45,079 nt of DNA from positions 1-45,079 of the forward strand of contig NZ_LGCM01000048.1 in NCBI RefSeq assembly GCF_001306035.1, in the 5' to 3' direction. Position numbers and translations under genes: made by a program. Position 1 is the stretch's first letter; every line of letters begins with the position of its first letter. This DNA comes from Levilinea saccharolytica (GTDB taxonomy: Bacteria > Chloroflexota > Anaerolineae > Anaerolineales > Anaerolineaceae). A model generated the notes under the pieces. The model did not search any database and was not told where the DNA came from. It was given only the letters and a program-made list of their open reading frames with translations. Shown here in pieces: positions 963-44,828 of the stretch.

Positions 963-2318
963 TCAAATTTCACTGGAAGAACCGGCGATTAACTGCGCAT
1001 AGTCATCCGGTGTGTCGATATCTTGAAATACCTGAGGGTCAGGCCAGGGAATTTTGCGGGGTGGGAAGTGGGTAAATAATTGGCGGCCGCCAGAATCACC
1101 TGTGAGGGCCATCAGGGCGGCAAATGTAGAGCGGTCAAAGAGGGTGGGATTACCTGGGCGGCCTTGAGCTTCGGGAAGCAGGATGGGATGGGGTGAGGCG
1201 GCCTGTTCCAGGAGAAGCAGATCAATCAATTCGACAGGAGTGCGCGGCTGGTCGCCCAGCAGAAAGACAGCGGCAGAGACATGGGCGGGCAGGGCCTGAA
1301 CTGCGGCGCGGATGGAGGTTGCCTGCCCGGAAGCCCAATCGGGATTGGAGACAATTTGCACCGGGTAAGCGCACGCAGCCTGTTGAATTTGATGGGCATT
1401 AGCGCCCACCACAAGGAGAAGGGGACTGAGCCCGGCTTGGAGGGCGGTCTCGATGACATGATGCAGGATGGGTTTGCCTTGCCACGTTTGCAGCAGCTTG
1501 GGCGCACCGAAGCGGGAGGCTGCACCCGCGGCCAGGATGATGCCAGCGGTGGGCTTCCAGGATTCGATGACTTCCGTGCGGCCGCAAGGGAGGATGGGCG
1601 ACGGCTGAAGGTGGGAGAGGTGGACGGCCTGATAGGTGGGGAGCAGTTGGCGGGCGATGCTGCGGCCGGCGTTCTGTTGGGAGGGTATTACGGCATGCGT
1701 CAGGACGGCCTGAGGGGTGATGTGGGCGGGGATATTCTTCAGGCCGCCAAAAGGGTGGAGGAAGGCATCGGCGATGTGCTCAGAGGCGATGGGGGCATTT
1801 TCCGGTAGGTGGGTGATCTGGGAGAAGCCCGTGGGGTTGTAGACAGATTCTTCGGATAAGGGTTTCCCAAGAGCCTTCAGGTTGGCAACGACGATGACGG
1901 CGTTGACGAAATTTGGAATGGGGGGCTCGTGCTCTTTAGGAGCTTTAAGCAGGCGTGTGCGCGCTCCGTCAGCTTCGATGAGCAGGGGAATGTGATTTTG
2001 TGCGGCAGATTCAGCCAAGCGCAACAGGAAGCTTTCGGGGACGCTCGCGACGCGCTCGCTCTGGGTGAGAGGGCCGGAAAACAGGGTGAGACGGCTTGAA
2101 AATTCACCAGCGTCAAGGTTCTGGGCAGGGTCGGTGACGATGACGTGCCTGTCGGACCAACTGCACTGTTCTTGGGAGAGATGAGCTGTGGTGGCTAGCC
2201 AAACGGGAGGCGAAAAGGAGCGAGCGAGGGAAAACAGCAGGGTTGTTTTGCCCCCTGCGCCGACGATTGCGGCGCAGGTTTCGCGAGTGAAATTCAAGGC
2301 GGTGAGGAGATTGGGCAA
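963..2318 (-). CDS. YqeC-MocA fusion: selenium-dependent hydroxylase accessory and cofactor nucleotidyltransferase
   Basis: Two domains in one chain of 451 residues. Residues 1 to about 240 match the YqeC family, a putative accessory factor of selenium-dependent molybdenum hydroxylases, with the P-loop GAGGKTT at about 20-26 and an EADGAR segment. From about residue 257 a MobA-like nucleotidyltransferase of the MocA family begins: LAAGAASRFGAPK nucleotide-binding loop, GDQPRTP with the metal-binding aspartate, GNPTLF, then GDSGGRQL and DIDTPDDY. MocA enzymes transfer CMP to molybdopterin to make molybdopterin cytosine dinucleotide. In many genomes these are separate neighbouring genes. The start is TTG with only a weak AGGT upstream, so the first residues are uncertain. 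No molybdenum hydroxylase gene is in the window. Domain assignments are strong; the selenium link is family knowledge. Confidence 0.85.
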   Translation of the reverse strand: MPNLLTALNFTRETCAAIVGAGGKTTLLFSLARSFSPPVWLATTAHLSQEQCSWSDRHVIVTDPAQNLDAGEFSSRLTLFSGPLTQSERVASVPESFLLRLAESAAQNHIPLLIEADGARTRLLKAPKEHEPPIPNFVNAVIVVANLKALGKPLSEESVYNPTGFSQITHLPENAPIASEHIADAFLHPFGGLKNIPAHITPQAVLTHAVIPSQQNAGRSIARQLLPTYQAVHLSHLQPSPILPCGRTEVIESWKPTAGIILAAGAASRFGAPKLLQTWQGKPILHHVIETALQAGLSPLLLVVGANAHQIQQAACAYPVQIVSNPDWASGQATSIRAAVQALPAHVSAAVFLLGDQPRTPVELIDLLLLEQAASPHPILLPEAQGRPGNPTLFDRSTFAALMALTGDSGGRQLFTHFPPRKIPWPDPQVFQDIDTPDDYAQLIAGSSSEI

Positions 2319-2806: not shown

Positions 2807-2877
2807 TGGGGGTTCGTCTAACGGCAGGACAGCAGACTCTGGATCTGTTTGTGGAGGTTCGAATCCTTCACCCCCAG
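2807..2877 (+). tRNA. tRNA-Gln (CUG anticodon)
   Basis: A full cloverleaf can be folded by eye. The acceptor stem is TGGGGGT with ACCCCCA. The anticodon stem GCAGA/TCTGT encloses the loop CTCTGGA, with anticodon CTG. The T-arm GGAGG-TTCGAAT-CCTTC contains one G-T pair, and the discriminator base is G. The 3' CCA is not encoded; the sequence after the discriminator is CCT. The D-arm (GTCTAACGGCAGGAC) is typical of bacterial tRNA-Gln. The first terminator lies 3 nt downstream and the tRNA 3' end is then repeated in tandem. Confidence 0.95.
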
Positions 2878-3480
2878 CCTAAAAAGCTCCTCTCTAGGGA
2901 GCTTTTTTTATTGGCTCGAATTGTCGGTTCGAACGCCATCGAGGCGCACGTCACTTCACCCCCAGCCTAAAAAGCTCCTCTCTAGGGAGCTTTTTTTATT
3001 GGCTCGAATTGTCGGTTCGAACGCCATCGAGGCGCACGTCCTTCACCCCCAGCCTAAAAAGCTCCTCTCTAGGGAGCTTTTTTTATTGGCTCGAATTGTC
3101 GGTTCGAACGCCATCGAGGCGCACGTCCTTCACCCCCAGCCTAAAAAGCTCCTCTCTAGGGAGCTTTTTTTATTGGCTCGAATTGTCGGTTCGAACGCCA
3201 TCGAGGCGCACGTCCTTCACCCCCAGCCTAAAAAGCTCCTCTCTAGGGAGCTTTTTTTATTGGCTCGAATTGTCGGTTCGAACGCCATCGAGGCGCACGT
3301 CCTTCACCCCCAGCCTAAAAAGCTCCTCTCTAGGGAGCTTTTTTTTATTGGCTCGAATTGTCGGTTCGAACGCCATCGAGGCGCACGTCACTTCACCCCC
3401 AGCCTAAAAAGCTCCTCTCCAGGGAGCTTTTTTCTTTTTTTGGTTCGAACGCCATCGAGGCGCACGTCACTTCACCCCGA
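2866..3480 (+). repeat. tandem array of tRNA-Gln 3' end plus terminator units
   Basis: The 3' end of tRNA-Gln (TCACCCCCAGCCT) and the terminator after it recur with the CCCCC element at 2871, 2959, 3046, 3133, 3220, 3307 and 3396. A degenerate last copy is at 3475. Spacing is 87-89 bp, then 79 bp. Each unit holds the tRNA tail, a complete intrinsic terminator, TATTGGCTCGAATTGTC, the T-loop-like GGTTCGAA, and about 17 nt (CGCCATCGAGGCGCACG) before the next tail. The central units look identical and the outermost differ by small changes, as in arrays maintained by unequal crossing-over. No unit contains a 5' half of a tRNA. The open reading frame across the array exists only because 87 is a multiple of 3. 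Confidence 0.95.
2881..2909 (+). terminator. intrinsic terminator after tRNA-Gln, first of seven copies
   Basis: AAAAAGCTCC and GGAGCTTTTT pair around a 7-nt loop, followed by a run of seven T. The same hairpin is copied at about 2969, 3056, 3143, 3230, 3317 and 3406, the last with one changed base in the loop. Confidence 0.9.
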
Positions 3481-23706: not shown

Positions 23707-26700
23707 ATGCGCCGTGTCAATCGCCGTGATCAGTATTACCGATTCTTATCAACTCATTTGCGGTTAATCATCATCGGGCTTTTCGTACTAATGACATTGA
23801 GCTTGGGGGGGAAGCCGGCAGCGGCAAAAGATTTTCAAGACCCCATCCCAGAAGCGATCATCAATCTTCAGGCAGAGACCTTTTTAGGAACCACGTTCAC
23901 CTTTGATGTGGTGTTTGATAACACCTCATCCGATTTGGTAACGGGGGTTGGTTTCGGCCCATACCTGGATGTGTTCCTTCCAACGGGCGGTGTGGACGGG
24001 ATGTCTGCTGGTGGGCCGGAGGACGGCATCTCTTTTAACAGCGCCCAATATCAGGGCTTCCCGGTGCAAGTCTTTCCGGTGATTGACTGTTTTTCGGGCA
24101 CCCAGGTGACTCACCCGTTGACCAATCAATTGATCAACTGCCCGGCTGCACCCGGCGGGATGTATGCCCCATTCCATTGGCAGATGGTGGTGGTGGAACT
24201 GCCTTTCGGCAGCTTTTCGATTGACCAGCCTCCGGCGCCAATCACCTTCAGTGCAACTTTAAGCGACTATGCAGATCTGTCTGTGCCGCTGCCGGTGGTG
24301 GCGCGCGCCGGTTTTCGTTTTGGGCAAGACCCCCTGGATAACCCCGTGAGCGACCCGGTTGTGGTCAGCGGTGACTTTACGCAGTATACCGAACCGGTCT
24401 TGTTGCGGCTGATCAAGCAATACAACTGGCGCGAGGATGAGACTTCGACCGGGCCGAATTTCACGCGCAGCTACACGGTCAACCTGGATATCGCCGAAGG
24501 TCAGGTGCTGAACAACGTGACCCTCAGCGATCTTTTACCCGCTGAAATGCAGTATGTTGCCCTGACCGCGGTGAACCCTGGGGCCGTGAGCTGCTCGTAC
24601 CCCGATACCGCGATTCCGGGGGGAACTTTGAGCTGCTCGTTCAGTTCGGTGACCGGCGGGGCCGGGGCAGCGGATGGATCGCTGACTTTCTCCTTTTATG
24701 TGCCGCTGCTGGATGCTGGCGGGAACCGCGTGATTGACCCCAATTCGGGCGGATGCGTGGACCTGGACAACGCCATTTCTGCCCAAGGAACCTGGGATCC
24801 GATCGATGACCGCGACAGCGAGGCTTTGACGGACATTCTGACCGATCCCGCGCATACGCTGGAGGCATGTTCGCACACGGTGCAGAAAAGCAATGGAATC
24901 GTGACAGACATTACCCCCGCGGGGTTAAGCCCGTACGATACCCTGGAATACACGTTGGATTTTCAGGTATCGGACTTCTTCGCGGAAAACGGAATTGTAC
25001 TGACGGATGTGATTTCGGATGGCCTGCGGTTTGACTCTGGGTTTACGCCGACCTTATCTATCAATGGGCATACCTTTACGCTGGCGACCACCACGTTCGA
25101 CTCGTCGAATTACAGCGTAATTCCGAATTACACCCCAGCTTCACCGGCCCCGAACGACGGCAGTACACAAATTATTTTCCGTGTATCGGATGAATTGAAC
25201 GATCAGCTCGGCTCGGATATGCTGCGGGGCGGGTGTGTGCCGGCTGTGGGGGTGACTGACCCGGACTGTACTTCGCCGGATAATGACGGGCCTACTACGG
25301 GTGTAATCCGCTACCGCGCGCAGGTTCAAAAAGAATTTTCTGACACTTATCCGTCCGGTGACCCCAGTGTGGATCAAGGCGACGTCCTGAGTAATTCAGT
25401 GGTCATGGTCGGCAACGTTTTGGATACGCTGAGTCTGCTTCCGACCGGCGGAACCCCGGTAGAAGACAGCCAATCGAGCGTATCCATCCAGCGCGGCAGT
25501 CTGACGAAAAGCATCTATGCCATCAATGGCAACACAGGTTATACCAGCCCCGTCTTGGTGTCGCCAGGAGATACGGTTACCTATCGGCTGCAATATGCAT
25601 TGTTCACGTCGGATGTTGAAAAACTGCGCCTGGTGGACTACCTGCCGCTACCTGTTTTTTCAGCGGGTGAGGTAACCACCTTCAACGATTTAATTGGGGC
25701 GGTTCCCGCGGCCGGAACGGCCAACTTTGGCCCGGCAGACACTTTCCGACAGTGGTACGGAACCACACCGGCGCTGAGCGTCGACGCAGCCAACAACAGC
25801 GTGAGCTTCTATTACGGCGATTTTGATATTGACCCCTCGCGCGCTTCGTTGGTGGATATCCTCTTCACGGTGACGGTCTCAGACCGCCCCTTCGCGGATG
25901 GCTTGTATCTGACGAACCAGGTGCAGGCTACAGAAGGGGCTACCAACGCGGATCCGCAGCAATCGACGGATTTGGTCCAAATTCAACTGGCAGAGCCGGT
26001 CGTTTCGGTGGCTAAGGGTGTGGTGTGGACAGACCGATCATCCGCAGTATTTTCACCCGATCCGGCTGCGCCGGTGACGTTTAATGCGCCAGGTGCCTGC
26101 CCGCGGTTCAGCGGCAGTATCGATTCGCTCAGCCTGGCGGGCACGCCCATTGACAGCGATGTATCCGGTCTGGACGCGGGGGATCTGGTCACTTTTGCAA
26201 TTGTGCTGGAAAATACCGGCCGCAGCAGCGCATTTGATGTGACTGTGGAGGACAGTTTGCCTGCGGGTCTAGCGATTCCGTCAGGGGGACTCAACCTGTG
26301 TGTAACGGACGGAAACGGCACGGCATTGGCCTACTCCGATTTAGGCGGCGGGTTGTTTGGCAGCGGCATTCGCCTGAATGATGGAACCACGGGTGCGCTG
26401 ACGCGGGGAAAGGACTCTTCTGGCGATCTGGTGGACACGGGGACGAATATTGCCGTGGTCACATTCGATTTACAGTTGGAAATTTCAATTGAACCGCCCA
26501 ACGCCATCACCAACACAGCGATCCTGACCAATTATGCAGGAACTGAAGGCGGTGAGGATCATACGGCATCCGATTTAGATGACGATGCGATTGTGGACTT
26601 GCTGCCCCCCACGGTGCTTAAGACAATGACTGGCACCAATCAGGCGCATACGGCTGACCCAAATGTGACCATTGGCGAGTTGGTGGATTACTCTATCGCG

Positions 26701-29700
26701 GTGACCGTCCCGGAAGGGACGCTGCCGAACGCACGCGTGACCGACACCCTGCCGAGTGGGCTGGCATTTGTGGACTGCCTGGAGGTTACGGCTCCCGCGA
26801 GTGTTTTCGCGCCGGCTCAGCTGGCAGCGCTGTGTAATGATCCAACGAACCCCACTGTGGCGGCAGGCGGGGTTTCGGCGACCTGGGATTTGGGAACGAT
26901 TGTGAACACCGACACGGATAACTCCGTGGCTGAGGTGATCACGATTAAGTATCGGGTGGCTGTAACGAATGTCGCGGCCAATGCGCAAGGTGCGACGCGG
27001 GTGAACCAGGCCCGGTTTGAATGGGACGGCGGGTCTGTGACGGATGCGGCCGATCCGATCCGGATCGTTGAGCCGCAGCTGCAAATCGGCAAAACTGTCC
27101 TTCCGACCACCGGTGACGCAGGCAACTCCGTCGAGTTCACCATTGTTTTACAGCATGCGGCTGGAAGCGGGGCGGATGCCTTTAACGTCAACTTCACGGA
27201 TGCTGTTCCTACAGGGCTGACCTTCTCCCCAGGTACTTTTTCGATCACGGGATATGCACCCACGTCTTCTGTGAATACGCCGCCGTTTTCTGCCACATGG
27301 GACAGCTTCCCGTTGGGAAGCGTGGCAACGATTAAGTTCAGCGCCACCCTGGATTCGAATGTGTCGCCGGGACAGGTGATTACCAACACGGCGTATACGA
27401 ACTGGAGCAGTTTACCGGGGAATGTGACGGCCACGCAGTCGCCGTATTCGGCGTTGGCTGTGGAACGAACTGGTTTTCCGGCAGATCCGGGCGGCAGCGA
27501 AAATGATTACACCCGGCAGTCAGCAGCGAACGTGACGGTGAATGTGCCTACACCGGTGAAATCCCTGGTGAGCACTTCTGAGGCGCACACGACAGGCAGC
27601 GCGGTGACGGTCGGTGAGGTGGTGCGTTACCGATTGGCGGTGCAAATTCCCGAAGGTGAGGCGACCCTGGTTACCCTTCAGGATTTGCTGCCGGTAAACG
27701 GCCTTTACATGGACGGCACGGCGCGCTTTACGTTTGTTTCCAATGGCGCGGGGATCACTTCTTCTTTGAAGGCCTGCACCAATGATGCCGGTGCGAGCGC
27801 GACGCTTGCAAATTTGGCCTCCAATTTGGTGGACTGCACGTTTGACGCCGGCATGATCACCGGCGGGCCGTTCGTCAGCGGCACAGATCCGACATTCGCC
27901 TTTGGCAATTTAGTCAATCTGGATCGGGATGATGACGGTGAATTCTTGGTGGTTGAGTTTAATATGCTGCTGATGAACACCACCGCTAATCAGCTCACTT
28001 CTCCTGCCACAACACGGGCCAATCAATTTAGGCTCTATGTGAACAGCGTACTGCGCGGGACTTCGAACAGTGTATCCATCTCGGTTACGGAACCCGTGCT
28101 GACGGTTGCCAAAGCGCTGGTGAGCACGCCCTTGGATGCCAAGGATCCGTTTAGCTACAGCGTGACGGTGCGCAACCCTGGGCCGATCACAGCGTTTGAC
28201 ATTCGGATGGTGGACGCGATCCCCCTGCAGCTGAACCTTCTGGGCTATTCGGATACGCGCCCAGCCACATCGGCGATTACCGCGGACACGAGCACAGCCA
28301 CGCAGGTGGACTTGATGCTGAACCAACTGCAGCCGGGTGAGGAATGGGTGATCACGCTGCAGGTGGAGGTTAAAGAGGGCACCCTGGTTGGGTTGACGAT
28401 TGCCAATTCAGCGAACATCCGGTGGACCAGCCTGCCGGGAGACAACGGCACCGTGGGCAACCCCACCGGCTCGACCGCCCCGGGGACTCCGGGATCGGCA
28501 ACGGGCGAACGCGACGGGAGCGGCGGCACGGGTACGCTGAACGATTACACGGCGTCTGACCCGGAAAACCTGACCCTGGTTTCGCCAGCCGTTCAAAAAT
28601 TTGACCCCATTCCGGCCGTTGCAACGATCGGAGATCTGGTCAATTATCTCATTGAGGTGAGCGTTCCAGAGGGCACGGTGCAGGACCTGGTGGTCACGGA
28701 TCTGCTGCCCGCAGGCCTTCGATATGAAAATTACGCTGTTTTAGTGAACGCCGGAGATGGGGGAGGCGTGCTGACTGAGACTTACGGCGGGACGGTGACT
28801 TTGACCCCGACGGTGGTGAACAGCGGCGCCAGTGGGGATGATGTGCGCTTTGAGTTTGGAGATGTGGTGACGACTGGAGATAACAACCCCGGTAATAACC
28901 GCTTCCTGATTCAAGTGGCGGTGCGGGTATTAAACGAGATTGGCAATGTGCAAGGAACCGTTCTGGCGAACACGGCCCGGATGGAATACACCAATCCTAA
29001 CGACGGCAGTACCACTCAACTGAACACGGGGCCGCGGAATTTGTCATTGGTGGAACCGCAGATTACCCTGCTTAAGAGTGTGGTGCCGACCAGCGGAATT
29101 GAGGCAGGGGATACCCTGACCTACACGCTGCAAATCAGCAATACGGGGGCGAGCACGGCGTATGATGTGTTTGTGGAAGACCAGATCCCGGCTGGCCTGG
29201 GGTTTGACACGGGTTCACAAATCTGCAACCTCTACAACGCGGGCGTTTTGGCCGGGCCCATCGGCGCTCAGACCAGCCTGATAGGTTCTGTGCTGCGGCT
29301 GGAAGGCAGCCCGACTGACTCGTGGGACCTGGCGTCCACCGATCCGGACACCTACATTGAGTGCACCTATACTGCCACGGTGCTGCCAGAGCTGTTCCTG
29401 TCGGGCACGCATATAAACGTGGCGGATGCAGATTGGGGGACTCAGGACGGCAGCGCTAACCCAGATGAGCGCAATTATGTGGATGCTGTTCCGTACCCTG
29501 TAGATCAAAATCAAGATCAAGACAGCGCATCGGTGAGCGGGGATGGGCCCATCATTGAAAAAAGCGTGGACAGGACTGTTGTCACGATTGGAGACACCGT
29601 CACCTATACATTGACGGTGACCTCCCCCTTGGGTACGGCGCGCAACCTGGTGATTGAAGATGTGCTACCTGCGGGGATGCTGTTTAACGCGGCGCCTGTG

Positions 29701-32700
29701 ACGATTGATGGAATTGACGACGCAGGACTGGCTTTTACCAGCAGCGACCCTGCCGGCGGCACTGTGCCGGTGACGCTGACCTGGAATTTCGGGAACGCCG
29801 AAATCACCAAATCGCCTGCAACGATCACCTACACGGCGACCGTTGCCAACGTGACGACCAACCAATCGGGGACGACCTTAACCAACCAGGCGACTCTGAA
29901 TTATGACCTGGCGGATGGAACGCCTGCGCCTGAGCAATTGGACGATACCACGGTGACCATCGTGGAGCCGCAAATCACACTCGTGAAAAGTGTGTCATTA
30001 AGCTCTGGGGTTGAAGCGGGCGATATATTGACGTACACCCTGCAAATCAGCAGCAGCGGAGCCAGCACGGCTTATGATGTGTTCGTTGAAGATCAAATTC
30101 CTGCCGGTCTGGAGTTTAACACCAACTCGCAGATTTGCGAACTGTATGATGCAGGCGTTTTGACCGGCCCGATTGGCGCGCAAAGCAGCCTGACGGGCAG
30201 CCTGCTGCGATTGGAAGGGAATCCGACTGGCTCTTGGGATCTGGCGGCTACCGATCCTGATACGTATATTTTGTGCACCTACACCGTCACCGTACTGCCG
30301 GATCTGTTCTTATCTGGAACGCATATCAACCTGGCGGATGCGGATTGGGGGACGCAAGACGGCAGCAGCAACCCGCAGGAACGGAATTACGAAGATGCAC
30401 CTGGACCGTTGTACCCGGTAGATCAGGATCAAGATCAGGACAGCGCGCCGGTCAGCGGAGATGGGCCGTTGATTGAAAAGGGCGTGGACAAGACGGTTGT
30501 GACCATTGGAGAAACGGTCACCTACACACTGACGATCACTTCGCCTTTAGGTACAGCGCGTAACCTGGTGATTGAGGATGTGCTGCCCGCGGGGATGTTG
30601 TTTAACGCAGCACCCGTGACGATTGACGGCATTGATACCGGTGCGCTGGTGTTCAGCAGCACAGACCCGGCGGGCGGGACGGTTCCGGTGACTTTGACGT
30701 GGGATTTTGGAGATGCAGCCATCAGCAAATCTCCGGCGACCATCACCTACACAGCGACGGCTGCCAATGTGGCTGCCAATCAAGCCGGGACGACTTTGAG
30801 CAACGCCGTCAGCTTGAACTATGATCTGGCGGACGGCACACCCGCGACGGAACAGACGGACGCTACCACAGTAACCGTGGTGGAACCGACTTTGACGATC
30901 GACAAGCAGATCACGACATTGCCCGACCCGCTGGATGCGGGTGGGGTGGTGAGTTACAGCCTGCTGGTCAGCAATCCAGCCGGGATCAACACCGCTACCG
31001 CTTACAACGTGACCCTGGAAGATACCCTGCCGGCGGCGTTGAGCCTGCAGCCTGCGACGGTCGTAGTAACGCCCAGCGCGGGGGTGGTAAACGCGGCAGT
31101 CAGCATCAGCGGGAATGTGATCACGGTGACGGCGGACGCTGTGCCGGTGGGCGACAGTATTCAGGTCGTTTTCTCGGCAGCGATCAATGACGGCGCTCCG
31201 GCGGGGTCAACCATTACCAATGCTGCAACTGTGGAATGGTCCAGCATGCCTGGGACCCCGGCGGAAGAGCGAAATGGAGACGACGGCCCGGGCGGAACCC
31301 TGGATGATTATGCAGCTGCTGATTCTGACGCATTTACCCTGCTGGATACGCCGGAAATTGCCAAGTCCATTGCTGGCACCAGCCTGAGCGACACGACCTT
31401 GCCAGTGGTGACGATTGGCGAGATTGTTCGCTACCGGTTGGTGGTCACCTTACCAGAAGGCTTGGCCTCCAGCGTGGTGGTGAGCGACGTGCTGCCGCTT
31501 GGACTGCGTTATGTCAGCGGTTCGGCAGTTGTCGATCGCACGGGCTTTGCTGGCACAGTTCCCGATCCCACGGTTACCGGGGGGACAACAGATGGGGAAG
31601 ACGTGATCTTCACCTTCGGTTCGACAGTGGTGAACGGCGACAATGATCCCAACAATGACAGCTTCGCGATTGAATTTGAAGCGGTGGTTTTGGATGTTGC
31701 CGGGAATGTGGGGCTGCCGCCTGCGGCGACGGTGCTCACCAATCAGGCCAATGTCGTTTTGAACGGCGGGACCGCAGTTGACAGCAACCCGGTGGATGTG
31801 ACGGTAGGCGAGCCGCGGCTGGTGATCTCGAAGGTGTTTACCCCGGATCAGGCGGCAGCCAACGATAATGTGACGGTGACTCTGACCGTGCAAAACGTGG
31901 GGACCACGCCAGCCTATGACGTGCTGGTTGAGGATTCGTTCCCCAAGTTGCGGTTCCCGGTGATTGGGGAAGGGATAACTCCCAGCGATTTTACGTATGC
32001 GCTGGTGGATGCTGACCCGAACTGGACTGTCACCTACACCGGCGGGCCGATTCCGGCGGGAGGCACACGCGATTTCGACTTTGTTGTCACGCTGGCGAAC
32101 GATTTTGCGTCGGGTGAAACCTATCTCAACACAGCCTATGTGAACGAGTACAGCACACTGCCGGGAGATGACCCCAATGAGCGGGATGAACCGATCGCCC
32201 AAGGTGAAGACACCTTAACGGGGATTAGCCCGGAACTGAACATCACGAAAACAGACTATGTGGACACGGCCGCTCCTGGCGACACCCTCATCTATGACCT
32301 AACCATTTCCAACATCGGCGAGCGCGATGCGACAGGCGTGGTAGTGACGGAAACCGTGCCGCAAGGGACCACCTTTAACAGCGCAAGCTCTTCGGCGGGC
32401 TGGTCTTGCACGACGACCGCCGGGGTTACAACCTGCGAGTACACCATTGGCGCTCTGGCGGCGAGTGCGTCGGTTACCATTCAGTTTGCTGTGACTGTGA
32501 ATGATCCTTTAGGGGCGACGATCACATCCATTCTTAACACAGCGACGGTAGCAGATGACGGTACACACGGGGCTGACCCGAATTTGGATGACAACACCAC
32601 CAGCGATGAAGACGCGATTGGTGGAGCGCTTCCTGACCTGACGGCAACCAAAGCCGTCATTCTGGCAGTGGATGCGAATGACAATGACACCGTATCCGCG

Positions 32701-34533
32701 GGAGACACGCTGCGCTACACGGTGACCCTGGTGAACAGCGGCAACCAAGACGCCGGGAATGTGGTTTTCACGGATACGCCGGACGCAAACACCGCTTTAG
32801 TGGTCGGCAGTGTAACGACCACCCAGGGCACGGTGGTGGTTGGGAACACTGCTGGAGATACGACGGTGGAAGTGCAGGTGGGCGATCTGGCGGGCAAGGG
32901 CGGGAGCGTGACGATTGTGTTTGACGTGCTCTTCGCCGATCCGTTGCCAGAGGATGTGGTGGCTGTGGCGAACCAGGGGTTGTTCGCTGGTGACAATTTT
33001 GAGGATACCCCCACGGATGACCCGGCCAGTACACCTGAGGATGATCCCACGATCACTGTGTTGGATACGGCATTCTCCAAGCGGGTGGTCTCGTCGAATC
33101 AGGAATTTACGCCGGATGGGAATGTGGCGATTGGTGAAATCGTCACGTATGAAGTGCGTATGATGATCCCCCCCACCGCACTGCAAAATGTGCGGCTGGT
33201 GGATGAATTGAGCGCGGGGCTGTCCTTCGTGCGCTGCGTGAGCATTACCCCAGGCGACCCAGCGCTGGCGACCAACGTTGTTGGCGGCTTTGACGCTGTG
33301 TGCGCTGCGCCGGTTTTGGAACCGATTCCAGCCACGAGTACGGCGCCGGAAGATATGGACCGTAAGGTGACCTTTGCGTTGGGGACGCTGACCAACGGCA
33401 GTGCTGATAATGTGCCGCTGACCTTCACGTACGAAGCGGTGGTGCTGAACAGTGCGGCCAATCAAGACGGCGTGCAGGTGGACAACGCGGCGACATGGAC
33501 CTGGGACGGCGGTTCTTTGACAACCTCGGCCCAGGATCAGACCATCGTGGAGCCTGACCTGGCAGTTTTGAAGAGCGTGGATGCCGAAACTGTGCTGCCG
33601 GGAACGATTGTAAAATTTACCCTGAAAGTTTGGCATACCAAAGATAGCCGTACCGATGCGTTCAATGTCGTTTTGACCGATAAGGTGCCGTCTGGATTGT
33701 CGTATGTGACCGGTTCTTTGAAACCGGTAAAGGGGCCGGTGCCCACTGTGTTGGATGAGGCCGGCGCGCCGACCCTGACGGTGACCTGGGACAGCTTCCC
33801 GTTAGGGAGCGAACCCTCCGTTGTAGAGTTCAAAGCGCGGGTGGGTAATCTGGGGCCGGGGACGGAGGTGGTCAACAACGCCAATGTGGCCTGGACCAGC
33901 CTGCCTGGGAACGTTTTTGACCCGCAGACGCGCAACCCGCTTTCGACCGAACGTTTTTATGACCCGGCGTCCACAGTAAACATCTACGGCGCGCGCAGCT
34001 CGGCAGCCATCCGGATCCCAACGCTGCCCAAGACCGGTTTTGCACCTGGGAAGGTGACCCCATTGGGGGCTCAGCCTGTTGGGTATTATCAAGACTTGGG
34101 CGATCTCTGGTTGGAGATTCCCGCTTTGAATGTGAAGGAACCCATTTTGGGCGTGCCAGGCTCGAAGGACGGCTGGGATTTGACCTGGCTGGGCGAATCG
34201 GTCGGCTACCTGAACGGGACGGCTTTCCCGACCTGGGAGGGCAACACAGGCCTGACGGCGCACGTATACAACGCTGACGGCTCGCCTGGACCTTTCCAGC
34301 GGCTGCATGAACTGCGCTGGGGCGATGTGGTGATCTTACACGGTTACGGTCAGCGGTATGTGTATGAGGTGCGGGAGAACGTGAAGACCTGGGAAGGCGA
34401 TCTTTCGCCGCTGCGGACAGAATCGATGGATTGGGTAACGCTGATCACCTGCCAGGGGTACGATGAGACGATCAACGAGTATATCTGGCGCGTGGCGGTG
34501 CGGGCAGTGCTGGTGAGGGTTGAGCCAGAATAG
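23707..34533 (+). CDS. giant DUF11-repeat surface protein with LPKTG motif and C-terminal sortase domain
   Basis: 3608 residues. A signal peptide (basic start, hydrophobic core LIIIGLFVLMTLSLGG, likely cleavage after PAAA at about residue 40) sends it out of the cell. Next come about 20 beta-sandwich units of DUF11/fimbrial isopeptide-like type. Many alternate between TIGE-VxY-...PEGT-...D-LPxGL and EPxLxxxK...AGDxxxYTLxxxNxG-...AYDVxVED. Near the end is LPKTGF (3440-3445), then a sortase fold with His3519 in TAHVYN, Cys3582 in TLITCQG and Arg3595 in IWRVAV. The Cys-Arg spacing of 13 matches SrtA. No membrane anchor follows. The start has GGGAGGGTGGG before ATG. It probably forms a stalk or cell-surface fibre, with the domain acting on itself or other proteins; that part is inference. 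No frameshift seen. Confidence 0.9.
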   Translation: MRRVNRRDQYYRFLSTHLRLIIIGLFVLMTLSLGGKPAAAKDFQDPIPEAIINLQAETFLGTTFTFDVVFDNTSSDLVTGVGFGPYLDVFLPTGGVDGMSAGGPEDGISFNSAQYQGFPVQVFPVIDCFSGTQVTHPLTNQLINCPAAPGGMYAPFHWQMVVVELPFGSFSIDQPPAPITFSATLSDYADLSVPLPVVARAGFRFGQDPLDNPVSDPVVVSGDFTQYTEPVLLRLIKQYNWREDETSTGPNFTRSYTVNLDIAEGQVLNNVTLSDLLPAEMQYVALTAVNPGAVSCSYPDTAIPGGTLSCSFSSVTGGAGAADGSLTFSFYVPLLDAGGNRVIDPNSGGCVDLDNAISAQGTWDPIDDRDSEALTDILTDPAHTLEACSHTVQKSNGIVTDITPAGLSPYDTLEYTLDFQVSDFFAENGIVLTDVISDGLRFDSGFTPTLSINGHTFTLATTTFDSSNYSVIPNYTPASPAPNDGSTQIIFRVSDELNDQLGSDMLRGGCVPAVGVTDPDCTSPDNDGPTTGVIRYRAQVQKEFSDTYPSGDPSVDQGDVLSNSVVMVGNVLDTLSLLPTGGTPVEDSQSSVSIQRGSLTKSIYAINGNTGYTSPVLVSPGDTVTYRLQYALFTSDVEKLRLVDYLPLPVFSAGEVTTFNDLIGAVPAAGTANFGPADTFRQWYGTTPALSVDAANNSVSFYYGDFDIDPSRASLVDILFTVTVSDRPFADGLYLTNQVQATEGATNADPQQSTDLVQIQLAEPVVSVAKGVVWTDRSSAVFSPDPAAPVTFNAPGACPRFSGSIDSLSLAGTPIDSDVSGLDAGDLVTFAIVLENTGRSSAFDVTVEDSLPAGLAIPSGGLNLCVTDGNGTALAYSDLGGGLFGSGIRLNDGTTGALTRGKDSSGDLVDTGTNIAVVTFDLQLEISIEPPNAITNTAILTNYAGTEGGEDHTASDLDDDAIVDLLPPTVLKTMTGTNQAHTADPNVTIGELVDYSIAVTVPEGTLPNARVTDTLPSGLAFVDCLEVTAPASVFAPAQLAALCNDPTNPTVAAGGVSATWDLGTIVNTDTDNSVAEVITIKYRVAVTNVAANAQGATRVNQARFEWDGGSVTDAADPIRIVEPQLQIGKTVLPTTGDAGNSVEFTIVLQHAAGSGADAFNVNFTDAVPTGLTFSPGTFSITGYAPTSSVNTPPFSATWDSFPLGSVATIKFSATLDSNVSPGQVITNTAYTNWSSLPGNVTATQSPYSALAVERTGFPADPGGSENDYTRQSAANVTVNVPTPVKSLVSTSEAHTTGSAVTVGEVVRYRLAVQIPEGEATLVTLQDLLPVNGLYMDGTARFTFVSNGAGITSSLKACTNDAGASATLANLASNLVDCTFDAGMITGGPFVSGTDPTFAFGNLVNLDRDDDGEFLVVEFNMLLMNTTANQLTSPATTRANQFRLYVNSVLRGTSNSVSISVTEPVLTVAKALVSTPLDAKDPFSYSVTVRNPGPITAFDIRMVDAIPLQLNLLGYSDTRPATSAITADTSTATQVDLMLNQLQPGEEWVITLQVEVKEGTLVGLTIANSANIRWTSLPGDNGTVGNPTGSTAPGTPGSATGERDGSGGTGTLNDYTASDPENLTLVSPAVQKFDPIPAVATIGDLVNYLIEVSVPEGTVQDLVVTDLLPAGLRYENYAVLVNAGDGGGVLTETYGGTVTLTPTVVNSGASGDDVRFEFGDVVTTGDNNPGNNRFLIQVAVRVLNEIGNVQGTVLANTARMEYTNPNDGSTTQLNTGPRNLSLVEPQITLLKSVVPTSGIEAGDTLTYTLQISNTGASTAYDVFVEDQIPAGLGFDTGSQICNLYNAGVLAGPIGAQTSLIGSVLRLEGSPTDSWDLASTDPDTYIECTYTATVLPELFLSGTHINVADADWGTQDGSANPDERNYVDAVPYPVDQNQDQDSASVSGDGPIIEKSVDRTVVTIGDTVTYTLTVTSPLGTARNLVIEDVLPAGMLFNAAPVTIDGIDDAGLAFTSSDPAGGTVPVTLTWNFGNAEITKSPATITYTATVANVTTNQSGTTLTNQATLNYDLADGTPAPEQLDDTTVTIVEPQITLVKSVSLSSGVEAGDILTYTLQISSSGASTAYDVFVEDQIPAGLEFNTNSQICELYDAGVLTGPIGAQSSLTGSLLRLEGNPTGSWDLAATDPDTYILCTYTVTVLPDLFLSGTHINLADADWGTQDGSSNPQERNYEDAPGPLYPVDQDQDQDSAPVSGDGPLIEKGVDKTVVTIGETVTYTLTITSPLGTARNLVIEDVLPAGMLFNAAPVTIDGIDTGALVFSSTDPAGGTVPVTLTWDFGDAAISKSPATITYTATAANVAANQAGTTLSNAVSLNYDLADGTPATEQTDATTVTVVEPTLTIDKQITTLPDPLDAGGVVSYSLLVSNPAGINTATAYNVTLEDTLPAALSLQPATVVVTPSAGVVNAAVSISGNVITVTADAVPVGDSIQVVFSAAINDGAPAGSTITNAATVEWSSMPGTPAEERNGDDGPGGTLDDYAAADSDAFTLLDTPEIAKSIAGTSLSDTTLPVVTIGEIVRYRLVVTLPEGLASSVVVSDVLPLGLRYVSGSAVVDRTGFAGTVPDPTVTGGTTDGEDVIFTFGSTVVNGDNDPNNDSFAIEFEAVVLDVAGNVGLPPAATVLTNQANVVLNGGTAVDSNPVDVTVGEPRLVISKVFTPDQAAANDNVTVTLTVQNVGTTPAYDVLVEDSFPKLRFPVIGEGITPSDFTYALVDADPNWTVTYTGGPIPAGGTRDFDFVVTLANDFASGETYLNTAYVNEYSTLPGDDPNERDEPIAQGEDTLTGISPELNITKTDYVDTAAPGDTLIYDLTISNIGERDATGVVVTETVPQGTTFNSASSSAGWSCTTTAGVTTCEYTIGALAASASVTIQFAVTVNDPLGATITSILNTATVADDGTHGADPNLDDNTTSDEDAIGGALPDLTATKAVILAVDANDNDTVSAGDTLRYTVTLVNSGNQDAGNVVFTDTPDANTALVVGSVTTTQGTVVVGNTAGDTTVEVQVGDLAGKGGSVTIVFDVLFADPLPEDVVAVANQGLFAGDNFEDTPTDDPASTPEDDPTITVLDTAFSKRVVSSNQEFTPDGNVAIGEIVTYEVRMMIPPTALQNVRLVDELSAGLSFVRCVSITPGDPALATNVVGGFDAVCAAPVLEPIPATSTAPEDMDRKVTFALGTLTNGSADNVPLTFTYEAVVLNSAANQDGVQVDNAATWTWDGGSLTTSAQDQTIVEPDLAVLKSVDAETVLPGTIVKFTLKVWHTKDSRTDAFNVVLTDKVPSGLSYVTGSLKPVKGPVPTVLDEAGAPTLTVTWDSFPLGSEPSVVEFKARVGNLGPGTEVVNNANVAWTSLPGNVFDPQTRNPLSTERFYDPASTVNIYGARSSAAIRIPTLPKTGFAPGKVTPLGAQPVGYYQDLGDLWLEIPALNVKEPILGVPGSKDGWDLTWLGESVGYLNGTAFPTWEGNTGLTAHVYNADGSPGPFQRLHELRWGDVVILHGYGQRYVYEVRENVKTWEGDLSPLRTESMDWVTLITCQGYDETINEYIWRVAVRAVLVRVEPE
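29050..30879 (+). repeat. two near-identical 304/306-residue modules in the giant protein
   Basis: Codons 1782-2085 (29050-29961) and 2086-2391 (29962-30879) encode very similar modules. Each starts VEPQITL-KSV, contains a cysteine pair (QIC and CTYT), an Asp/Gln-rich stretch (DQNQDQDS or DQDQDQDS), and a second unit with VLPAGMLFNAAPVTIDGID. The tandem duplication appears the most recent in the gene; other units are far more diverged. Confidence 0.9.
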
Positions 34534-38409: not shown

Positions 38410-38437
38410 TTGAAATTGTTCCGATCTGTGCTATAAT
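38410..38437 (+). promoter_or_regulatory. promoter of the selenoperoxiredoxin-ohrR unit
   Basis: TTGAAA (38410-38415) and perfect TATAAT (38432-38437), 16 bp apart, about 60 bp ahead of the peroxiredoxin start codon. Confidence 0.7.
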
Positions 38438-38454
38438 ATATCGCAGGCGATATA
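38437..38454 (+). promoter_or_regulatory. palindromic operator candidate (OhrR/MarR type)
   Basis: TATATCGC-AG-GCGATATA is a perfect 8-bp inverted repeat with a 2-bp centre. It begins on the last base of the -10 element and covers the transcription start. A MarR/OhrR dimer typically binds a palindrome of this size, and an OhrR-like gene is two positions downstream. Confidence 0.6.
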
Positions 38455-38495
38455 ATCGTGAGTGAATAAAAATGATATTAAGAAAAGGAGCCGAT

Positions 38496-38978
38496 ATGGC
38501 ACGCGTTTCCATCCAACAAACCGCCCCTGATTTCCAATTGGCGGATTTCAAAGGCAAAACCTTTACTTTGTCCGCGCTGCGCGGCGAGAAGAACGTACTT
38601 TTGGTTTTCAACCGCACCTTTACCTGACCGTTTTGCCAAAAGCATATGGCGCAGTTGCGCCAAGACTACAGTAAATTTGTGGATCGACAGGTGGAGGTGG
38701 TGGTGGTGGGGCCGGAAGATGCTGCCGGATTTGCTAAATACTGGGAGAAGGAAAATCTGCCTTTTATTGGCTTGCCTGACCCTAAAGCCAGTGTCTTAAA
38801 ACTGTACGGCCAGGAAGTGAACCTGTTCAAACTGGGACGGATGCCGGCGCAGGTGTTGATTGACCGGGCTGGCGTGGCGCGCTTTGTGCATTACGGTCAC
38901 AGCATGAGCGATATTCCCAGCAACGACGAGATCCTGACTCTGGCGGAACTCTTGAATACTGAAGTAAGCCCTGCCTGA
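38496..38978 (+). CDS. peroxiredoxin-like selenoprotein (AhpC/TSA fold), Sec at codon 44
   Basis: 160 residues with an in-frame TGA at 38625-38627 (codon 44). Upstream is ARVSIQQTAPDFQLADFKG and VLLVFNRTFT; downstream, in the same frame, is PFCQKHMAQLRQDY. Related thioredoxin-fold peroxiredoxins read R-x-F-x-C-PFC-x-x-HMxQL, so the TGA replaces the catalytic cysteine and leaves a UxxC motif. The SECIS-like hairpin at 38647-38662 fits bacterial selenocysteine insertion. The remainder (LIDRAGVARFVHYGHSMSDIP) is intact, arguing against decay. It probably reduces hydroperoxides. AAGGAG precedes the ATG. Together with OhrR it forms a peroxide-response unit. The alternative is a Cys-to-stop mutation or sequence error. 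Confidence 0.85.
38647..38662 (+). promoter_or_regulatory. putative bacterial SECIS element
   Basis: A 6-bp stem TGGCGC/GCGCCA with loop AGTT begins 19 nt after the TGA, and the loop 25 nt after it. This is within the usual bacterial SECIS distance, and G is the second loop base, as in SelB-recognised loops. Confidence 0.6.
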
Positions 38979-39008: not shown

Positions 39009-39485
39009 ATGATGACCTACGAGCAGTTAAAACTTGAAAACCAGTTGTGCTTCCCTGTATACGCCGCCTCACGGCTGATCATTCGTGAATATCAGCCGCA
39101 TTTGGAAAAGCTGGGAATCACATACCCGCAATATTTGGTGCTGATGCTGCTCTGGGAGACGGACGGCAGAACGGTGAACGAGATTGCGCAGGCGCTGATC
39201 CTGAACACCAATACGGTCACGCCGATCTTAAAGCGTATGGAAGCCCTGGGGTTCATTGAGCGGAAGCGATCTAATGAGGATGAGCGGCGGGTGATCATTT
39301 CGTTGACAGCAAAGGGGGATCATCTCCGGGAAGAGGCAGTGAAAATTCCGGAGCGACTGGTGGAAGGGTTGCTAACGGATGATATGAAATTGGAAGACCT
39401 GCACCGCTTGAAAGAACAGCTGTATGCGATGATCCACTTTCTCACGGAGAAAGGCGGCGGGGAACCTGGAGACGAAAGAACCTGA
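39009..39485 (+). CDS. ohrR: OhrR-type MarR family peroxide-sensing repressor
   Basis: 158 residues, MarR winged-helix fold. The segment LENQLCFPVYAASRLI carries Cys14 at the position of the peroxide-sensing cysteine of Bacillus OhrR (Cys15), followed by LGITYPQYLVLMLLWE as in OhrR. DNA-binding helices and wing: VNEIAQALILNTNTVTPILKRMEALGFIERKRSNEDERRVII. OhrR represses until organic hydroperoxides oxidise that cysteine. It starts 30 bp after the selenoperoxiredoxin stop, so the pair is probably co-transcribed and autoregulated from the palindromic operator upstream. No classical ohr gene is in the window. Confidence 0.88.
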   Translation: MMTYEQLKLENQLCFPVYAASRLIIREYQPHLEKLGITYPQYLVLMLLWETDGRTVNEIAQALILNTNTVTPILKRMEALGFIERKRSNEDERRVIISLTAKGDHLREEAVKIPERLVEGLLTDDMKLEDLHRLKEQLYAMIHFLTEKGGGEPGDERT

Positions 39486-39593: not shown

Positions 39594-40070
39594 ATGAAAG
39601 CAGACCCAGACAACTATCAGCTTCAAAAATCCAGCATCATCCAAACCACTTTCCGAATCTTGCTGGGGGTATTCTTAACCTTTGCTGGGGTGAATCACCT
39701 GACCGTGGCGCGGGTGGAATTCCTGGCGCAGGTGCCGTCATGGGTTCCGCTGGACGGAGACCTGGTGGTGGTTATCTCTGGTGTTATCGAAATCGCCTTG
39801 GGACTGGGGCTGATGTTTCTGAGCCGGCAGCGCGCATTGATGGGTTTGGCCGCGGCGCTGTTTTTTATTCTCATCTTCCCTGGCAATATCTCACAATATG
39901 TCAACCGCATTGACGCTTTTGGGTTAAATACGGACCAGGCCCGTTTCATTCGGTTGTTTTTTCAGCCGCTGTTGGTGATTTGGGCTTTATGGGCTACCGG
40001 TGCTTGGCGCGCCCTGCGTGCTGCGAAATTTGATGTCCGGGCATTTTTGGCTGCCGCATTTAGACTCTAG
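39594..40070 (+). CDS. DoxX-like integral membrane protein
   Basis: 158 residues with about four hydrophobic segments: FRILLGVFLTFAGVNHL, LVVVISGVIEIALGLGLMF, ALMGLAAALFFILIFPGNI and FFQPLLVIWALWATGAW. The GVIEIALGLGL core and PGNISQYVNRIDAFGLNTDQARFIRLFFQPLL pattern match the DoxX family of small membrane proteins. DoxX proteins have been linked to quinone or thiosulfate redox in archaea and to redox homeostasis in bacteria, but the role here is unknown. Its position after the peroxide-response genes is suggestive only. Ribosome-binding site AAGGA lies about 8 nt upstream. Confidence 0.75.
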   Translation: MKADPDNYQLQKSSIIQTTFRILLGVFLTFAGVNHLTVARVEFLAQVPSWVPLDGDLVVVISGVIEIALGLGLMFLSRQRALMGLAAALFFILIFPGNISQYVNRIDAFGLNTDQARFIRLFFQPLLVIWALWATGAWRALRAAKFDVRAFLAAAFRL

Positions 40071-44487: not shown

Positions 44488-44755
44488 AACCCAGGTCTCG
44501 ATTGTGATTAAACAACCCAGAAGCCGTTTTCACGACTTCTTGATTGAGTGGCGGGAGTGATGGGGTCCGAATGCATCCCCTGCTGGGGGGACCCCGGTCT
44601 CGAAAGGGATTAAACAAAAAAGAAGCCGTTTTCACGACTTCTTGATTGAGTGGCGGGAGTGATGGGGTGCGAATGCATCCCCTCCTGGGGGGACCCCGGT
44701 CTCGAAGGGGATTAAACAAAAAAGAAGCCGTTTGCACGACTTCTTGATTGAGTGG
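44488..44755 (-). repeat. tandem array of tRNA-Asp 3' end plus terminator units
   Basis: Going downstream from tRNA-Asp, the tRNA 3' tail (CTCCCGCCACTC, including CCA) plus the terminator GAAGTCGT/ACGGCTTC recur with a 102-bp period. The GCC of the terminator lies at 44727, 44625 and 44523. Each distal unit begins with CGAGACC-GGGG, a match to the tRNA variable loop and T-stem. It then has an altered T-arm, about 19 nt longer than the real one, before the tRNA 3' tail. The third unit ends in a degenerate copy. The pattern parallels that after tRNA-Gln. Confidence 0.92.
44714..44743 (-). terminator. intrinsic terminator after tRNA-Asp, first of three copies
   Basis: Minus strand GAAGTCGT (44743-44736) pairs with ACGGCTTC (44731-44724), then TTTTTTGTTT. 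It is copied at about 44622 and 44520, the latter with a broken T tract. Confidence 0.85.
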
Positions 44756-44828
44756 CGGGAGCGACGGGGTTCGAACCCGCGGTCTCGGCCTTGACAGGGC
44801 CGCATGTTAGCCACTACACCACGCCCCC
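44753..44828 (-). tRNA. tRNA-Asp (GUC anticodon), CCA encoded
   Basis: Full cloverleaf on the minus strand, 76 nt. The acceptor stem GGGGGCG pairs with CGCTCCC (one G-T). The anticodon stem CGGCC/GGCCG encloses loop CTGTCAA, anticodon GTC. The T-arm is GCGGG-TTCGAAC-CCCGT, the discriminator G, and CCA is encoded. A promoter lies 11 bp upstream. Confidence 0.95.

Follow-up and report, generated by a model that had tools for sequence, protein, structure and literature searches.

It was asked whether the reading frame at positions 38496-38978 of a Levilinea saccharolytica contig, which is interrupted by an in-frame TGA, is a broken gene or an intact gene for a selenoprotein. The contig (45,079 nt, analyzed at full length and called the window below) belongs to an assembly of 4.23 Mb in 65 contigs. 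The frame begins at ATG 38496, is interrupted solely at codon 44 and stays open to a terminal TGA at 38976-38978, exactly as placed by an initial annotation made from the sequence, which had read codon 44 as selenocysteine (Sec). The probability that the gene encodes a selenoprotein is put here at about 0.96. The apparently broken gene is very probably intact, it recurs in relatives, and it can be missed by automatic annotation. The features of the gene are listed below by window position.

38483..38490, plus strand: ribosome-binding site AAAAGGAG, read from the sequence, 5 nt upstream of the ATG
38496..38978, plus strand: predicted coding sequence of a selenoprotein of peroxiredoxin (Prx) fold (AhpC-TSA/Redoxin), 160 residues, with Sec codon 44 and a terminal stop that is also TGA
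38625..38627, plus strand: in-frame TGA, the putative Sec codon 44
38634..38636, plus strand: TGC, Cys47 of the UPFC motif, the presumed partner of Sec44, aligned with the peroxidatic Cys of Bcp-type Prx
38646..38978, plus strand: spurious C-terminal ORF of 110 residues, reportable by a standard gene caller and present where the initial annotation had expected a short ORF
38647..38662, plus strand: bacterial SECIS-like hairpin with a 6-bp stem and an AGUU tetraloop (loop 38653-38656)

Relatives were collected in two ways. Genome contigs were scanned, giving 161 relatives, and the best 80 of the 161 were kept; the codon read-out of these 80 loci gave 81 rows, the additional row being a Cys paralogue in L045. 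Alignment A1 (80 rows) comprised the window and 79 of the 80 loci, L035 being left out for its N bases. Profile searches were run over genomes of the class (103 of 298 matched at E 1e-20, lower-scoring paralogues included) and of the phylum (44 of 400 matched at E 1e-35). From these, 119 loci were assembled: 93 class matches of at least 119 bits covering codon 44 (96 were listed, and three fragments without codon 44 were dropped) and 26 of 29 further phylum matches, the three left out being second copies in G562, G637 and G651. Eleven lower-scoring or paralogous loci (L140-L145, L149, L152-L154 and L157) lie outside the 119. The sets of 80 and 119 overlap in species and are not additive.

TGA at the aligned codon, with TGC three codons on, was found in 80/80 kept loci. 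Among the 119 profile-search loci codon 44 was TGA in 118 and TGC in one (genome G289), and codon 47 encoded Cys in 117, the exceptions being L213, which looks decayed, and L214, which keeps TGA44 and has Ala at 47. Identity to the window protein ranged from 92% down to 59% in A1, and conservation of the protein persisted past the TGA. Ten of the 119 loci had a further stop within the match, nine of them terminal and one internal (L221, position 105). The TGA form was also present in Thermomicrobium roseum DSM 5159, whose record is complete (NC_011961.1, L159:1501-1968), with the frame continuing and the same hairpin following the TGA.

Seen in one genome only, an in-frame stop would suggest a pseudogene, or a sequencing or assembly error producing a premature stop; many loci come from metagenome assemblies, and both L213 and L221 appear decayed. 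Decay or error is contradicted by the recurrence of the same TGA throughout both sets and in a complete genome record, and by protein conservation that goes on beyond it to later stops which, where any exist, stand at the very end of the match in 117 of 118 TGA loci. This explanation was rejected on the conservation of TGA at the same codon and is regarded as having practically no chance of being correct.

By record title, 69 of the 80 kept loci belong to Chloroflexota groups, two are named only as 'bacterium' and nine carry other groups (Actinomycetota and its classes, Smithella or Deltaproteobacteria, Clostridia, Spirochaetales). The contigs with other-phylum titles are L032, L036, L044, L077, L081, L089, L091, L094 and L099, and for these transfer and misbinning are indistinguishable because most of the 80 loci are metagenome bins. 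Plasmid and phage collections held only relatives of less than 60% identity (34 and 4 records, respectively). A distant paralogous redoxin subfamily was seen in both forms in related genomes: L153 and L154 have TGA followed by CCCAGTTGGGG, and L140-L142 have Cys (FFIRET-CPQC) without CCCAGTTGGGG. In L045, L110 and L128 the Sec gene has a Cys paralogue (TRHFGCPQC) about 600 nt away.

RNA folding placed the hairpin stem at 38647-38652/38657-38662, formed by ATGGCGCAGTTGCGCCA after the TGA, with 19 nt from TGA to stem and 25 nt from TGA to loop. The hairpin with G in a 4-nt loop that had been proposed beforehand is therefore present, its '25 nt' being the distance to the loop. The distance from the TGA to the start of GGCGCAGTTGCGYC is exactly 20 nt in 72 of the 80 sequences, GGCGCAGTTGCGYC lying inside the longer stem that starts at 19 nt. 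Synonymous codon use was scored in 115 columns of the 80 sequences (same-codon excess: mean 0.087, sd 0.191), and codons 54, 53 and 52 were the three most constrained. Leu54 was written TTG in 80/80, Gln53 CAG in 79/79 and Ala52 GCG in 75/77; in the rest of the gene, hairpin columns removed, TTG made up 278 of 1226 Leu codons and GCG 198 of 884 Ala codons. Selection at the RNA level acts on this hairpin.

Pairing was examined in alignment A2 (89 ungapped sequences: 80 of A1 and nine of 18 candidates). The 18 candidates had been pre-filtered for CAGTTG, so the loop is present by selection in the added nine; this does not apply to the 80. Stem positions paired in 98.9% of 534 cells, compared with 16.9-66.7% when the partner was slid. 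Two stem pairs had changed on both sides, a number reached by 4 of 500 shuffles, and the covariation score was reached by 27 of 500; covariation is thin, and weak when taken alone, since the hairpin shows so little variation. When synonymous shuffles served as the reference, free-energy z-scores were modest (mean -1.28; 13/80 below -2).

The element was not at one distance throughout the 118 TGA loci. In 100 of them CAGTTG is found 24 nt downstream of the TGA. Another 15, which all belong to family f2 and have LRGF preceding the TGA, carry the hairpin 9 nt closer (15 nt after the TGA), mostly set within GCGCGC-loop-GCGCGC-like sequence; ten of these closer loops are CAGTTG, three are TCGTTG, and those of L189 and L235 are CAGTTA. 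The remaining three loci (L163, L206 and L225) have other loops. The Cys form (L139 in G289) has CTGACTCAACTTCGG at the place of the hairpin and no CAGTTG, with residues that are still similar. A constrained hairpin whose motif is lost in the Cys form is predicted by a SECIS and not by protein selection alone. A scan for intrinsic terminators also flagged the hairpin on the minus strand (1 found, 1.6 in shuffles), a reading that was not followed because the would-be T-tail bases vary among the A2 relatives.

The Sec apparatus was searched for in the window's own genome. A tRNA-Sec was found at 75.7 bits (gathering cut-off 47), with anticodon TCA and type tRNA-SeC by ARAGORN, together with SelB (334.3 bits, joined; cut-off 242.25), SelA (532.7 bits; cut-off 267.9) and SelD (356.7 bits; cut-off 125). 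The initial annotation had pointed to selA, selB, selD and tRNA-Sec as the genes to look for, and had made its reading depend on selB and tRNA-Sec and on a TGA that is not a sequencing error; all four are present above their cut-offs, and the TGA is shared by both sets of relatives. SelD of this genome (L106, C10:81857-82789) has an in-frame TGA of its own in SSCAG-U-ASK, so the selenophosphate synthetase is itself likely a selenoprotein. The genome also encodes a second redoxin (L021, C34:77664-78089), whose in-frame TGA, in WTPI-U-TSQ, makes it a candidate Sec peroxiredoxin of the TxxU form.

Taken together, UGA at a redox position with a Cys homologue, a downstream hairpin with G in the loop, and SelA, SelB, SelD and tRNA-Sec are the marks by which bacterial selenoproteins are recognized, and the selenoprotein reading of the initial annotation is borne out by them. 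We infer that SelB with Sec-tRNA(Sec) would bind the hairpin beginning 19 nt after the UGA, at the apical loop AGUU, that Sec would be inserted at codon 44, and that the last UGA, at 38976, would terminate translation.

A genome-wide reassignment of TGA, or its reading as Trp or another standard residue without selenium, would equally leave the frame open, since it is open whichever residue TGA encodes. The gene's own terminator is nevertheless TGA, as are the terminators of 34 of the 80 loci (32 end in TAA, 13 in TAG and one runs off its contig), and the nearest Cys form, L139, has Cys and not Trp at position 44. The synonymous constraint on the hairpin codons and the full Sec apparatus speak against it as well. 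Reassignment was therefore rejected as very improbable, and codon 44 is read as Sec in what follows.

Co-occurrence of the gene with the Sec machinery was not taken as proof. The trait is common across the class anyway (selB in 239 and tRNA-Sec in 225 of 298 genomes), which makes co-occurrence weak. At strict limits, the 103 matched class genomes (lower-scoring paralogues included) had selB in 93, tRNA-Sec in 88, both in 81 and neither in three; 15 were without tRNA-Sec and 10 without selB. The three with neither were G126 and G128, which have the TGA form, and G238, whose match is not of the TGA form. With laxer limits, five of the 15 were rechecked for tRNA-Sec and scored 53.2 (G030), 49.0 (G126), 47.9 (G289), 45.1 (G152) and 43.2 bits (G128) against the cut-off of 47. 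These five scores are doubtful, as clear tRNA-Sec matches lie at about 70-80 bits and non-Sec matches in the window's own genome reach 44; near its cut-off the model is not clean, with 5 of 14 control genomes passing (3 of 14 with E 1e-9). G126, G128 and G152 are draft genomes with the TGA form. G289, which has the Cys form, still has a selB match, so that loss of the trait does not neatly accompany the change to Cys.

A further selenium-related gene of the window had been offered as a pointer to selenium use:

963..2318, minus strand: YqeC-MocA-like fusion, a separate selenium trait, assigned to selenium cofactor biosynthesis by model name

Its YqeC part scored 130.9 (cut-off 73.05), and its MocA equivalog match, at 153.7, fell below the cut-off of 186.45, so that the YqeC half of the proposed YqeC-MocA fusion holds and the MocA half is short of its model. 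As a pointer, YqeC leads by its model name to a selenium cofactor pathway and not to Sec itself.

The window protein matched AhpC-TSA (PF00578; 79.4 bits, cut-off 26) and Redoxin (PF08534; 68.2 bits, cut-off 26.6). The AlphaFold2 model had a mean pLDDT of 92 and a helix starting at residue 45, which would place Sec44 at its N-terminal edge. The best fold matches of the model were Bcp1 (3drn; Z 20.9, rmsd 2.6 over 151 residues), Bcp4 and AhpE (Z about 20). Foldseek also returned ResA at a query TM-score of about 0.7, unlike VIA-align, among whose 50 listed matches there was no ResA-type chain. PxxxTxxC is the motif that holds the peroxidatic Cys of Bcp-type Prx. In a profile alignment with Bcp1 and in an alignment with the Bcp-type loci L143-L145, residue 44 faced the Thr and residue 47 the peroxidatic Cys of this motif; residue 40 is an Arg, invariant in A1, where the Prx motif has Pro, so that the window protein reads R40-x-x-x-U44-x-x-C47. 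As to the active-site Arg of canonical peroxiredoxins, an Arg of Bcp1 aligned with invariant Gln119, near a gap, with invariant Arg115 close by.

The initial annotation had named the protein a peroxiredoxin with TGA at the catalytic cysteine of its relatives. The predicted fold stands (Bcp1, Z 20.9) and the PxxxTxxC motif does not, and a canonical peroxiredoxin was rejected for this reason; likewise, the TGA falls at the first Cys of CxxC-type relatives (L139), not at the canonical peroxidatic Cys, which aligns with Cys47. Since Sec44 faces the Thr, Cys47 faces the peroxidatic Cys and the motif is a thioredoxin/ResA-like U-P-F-C, 'Prx-like thiol oxidoreductase' describes the protein better. 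A UPFC motif of the thioredoxin/ResA type is thus set in a predicted peroxiredoxin fold. ResA/TlpA oxidoreductases, which the protein resembles through the Foldseek match, have Cys at the first motif position, and the CxxC of ResA is at the same place as UPFC; the window protein differs from ResA in scoring 52.4 against a model cut-off of 170.

Probably the protein uses Sec44 as its nucleophile and works as a thiol-dependent peroxidase or disulfide reductase. Like the corresponding motifs of thioredoxin and ResA, Sec44-Pro-Phe-Cys47 would open the first active-site helix, and Sec44 would most likely attack peroxide or disulfide substrates; Cys47 would then resolve Sec44 by forming a Sec-S bond, after which the enzyme would be recycled by a thioredoxin-type reductant. 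The roles might be reversed, with Cys47 attacking peroxide and Sec44, at the Thr position, resolving or activating. Such chemistry would fit the alignment of Cys47 with the Bcp-type peroxidatic Cys and the best fold matches, all of which are Prx (Bcp1, Bcp4 and AhpE), but Sec replaces the first Cys of the CxxC seen in L139, and L214 keeps TGA44 while having Ala at 47. Moreover, Sec is a stronger nucleophile than Cys, and in thioredoxins the first Cys of CxxC is the attacking residue. Reversed roles are accordingly considered unlikely, and attack by Sec44 is preferred.

Regulation was considered from the sequence around the gene, where the following features were found.

38410..38437, plus strand: sigma-70-like promoter TTGAAA-16-TATAAT, 11 of 12 consensus positions (scan of 1.4 kb: 2 sites of this kind, compared with 1.4 in shuffled sequence)
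38437..38454, no strand: perfect palindrome TATATCGC-AG-GCGATATA, a candidate operator, starting on the last base of the -10 box
39009..39485, plus strand: MarR-family, OhrR-like regulator, 30 nt downstream (144.2 bits, below the OhrR cut-off of 200)
39594..40070, plus strand: 158-residue protein with weak DoxX-like matches below cut-off, a possible third gene of the unit

The palindrome is the only perfect one in the 45-kb window with arms of at least 8 and a gap of at most 4. The selenoprotein gene is apparently the first of a small unit, and the OhrR-like MarR gene is probably in the same operon; a MarR gene also follows the selenoprotein gene in L025 and L042. The regulator may bind the promoter palindrome, and autoregulation by a MarR repressor is hypothesized. 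L025, the nearest relative, has an imperfect counterpart, TATATCGTAAGCGATATA, whose spacing to the ATG is almost identical. In L042, no palindrome of the sought size was found in the 160 nt before the gene, which argues against a general MarR-operator link. Across the neighborhoods of the 80 loci there was no universal partner gene. A DUF4345-like small ORF (the fragment's Pfam score is below cut-off) directly follows in 19 of the 80, and in L061, L074 and L075 it overlaps the selenoprotein stop codon by 4 nt, an arrangement that would suit ribosomes reaching the true stop.

The family was compared with known selenoproteins. Published tables of predicted families list a 'Prx-like thiol:disulfide oxidoreductase' (PF00578, UxxC/UxxU) and a 'Redoxin family protein' (PF08534, UxxC) (PMC13188914 Table 1; PMC9312934), and the Sargasso study includes UXXC Prx-like proteins (PMC1088965); the kind is therefore known. 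The window clade was set against the PF00578 kind by domain, motif and table description (published representative WP_010940744.1). The two share the AhpC-TSA domain, UxxC and a hairpin downstream of the TGA. The GOS study, in its Table 2, gives 225 Sec and 2,740 Cys sequences for 'Prx-like 1', and most selenoprotein families described there have many more Cys homologues than Sec forms (PMC2398784); the window clade, with 118 Sec of 119, differs from that description. With the Redoxin family selenoprotein (PF08534), as tabulated, the window protein has the Redoxin domain and UxxC in common, and it may or may not be of the same clade. For the Chloroflexi, a 2006 survey reported three selenoproteins of three families (PMC1794560).

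Among models, the SelL-related redox protein NF040769 was the best NCBIfam match, and all 80 A1 members matched it at E 0.001; the window protein scored 74.9 bits over residues 8-105 only, against a curated cut-off of 120, and membership was rejected. No NCBIfam model reached its cut-off for the window protein. The protein is of the same fold class as the Bcp-type Sec peroxiredoxin (PxxxTxxU). As the published descriptions give it, that protein has Sec at the peroxidatic position (TxxU), whereas the window protein has it three residues earlier, at the Thr position. The nearly always-Sec clade appears to be new within the known UxxC Prx-like kind, the known kind being compared here by description; a literature search (titles and abstract openings, few subscription journals covered) returned no description of it.

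The retention of Sec in 118 of 119 loci suggests that Sec is hard to replace in this clade. In the gene table of the T. roseum record, the relative is entered as a 42-residue hypothetical protein, WP_012643006.1, that stops at the TGA. This table is declared incomplete, and the original record may therefore also have an entry for the C-terminal part. Given the 42-residue entry and the lack of an NCBIfam model at cut-off, annotation of other genomes may overlook the gene as well. For Anaerolinea thermophila UNI-1, a Sec elongation factor is described but no dehydrogenase annotated with Sec (PMC4959059). Since a metagenome-assembled genome named Anaerolinea thermophila (L102) carries the gene with TGA, the UNI-1 elongation factor may serve this family. 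On balance we lean toward a broader proposal, namely a Chloroflexota-wide redoxin family, almost always with Sec and liable to be truncated at the UGA by standard annotation, which would be a main reason for retaining the Sec machinery in Anaerolineae without Sec dehydrogenases, and whose SECIS would keep one apical element, CAGUUG, in two registers that differ by 9 nt. If so, the two registers are a natural experiment on SelB-SECIS spacing, by which SelB spacing rules become testable.

Elsewhere in the window, a tandem array at 2864-3433 (87-bp unit, 6.5 copies, 98% matches) starts within tRNA-Gln (2807-2879), and another at 44489-44775 (102-bp unit, 2.8 copies) runs into tRNA-Asp (44753-44828). 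Positions 23707-34533 hold a single ORF of 3608 residues.
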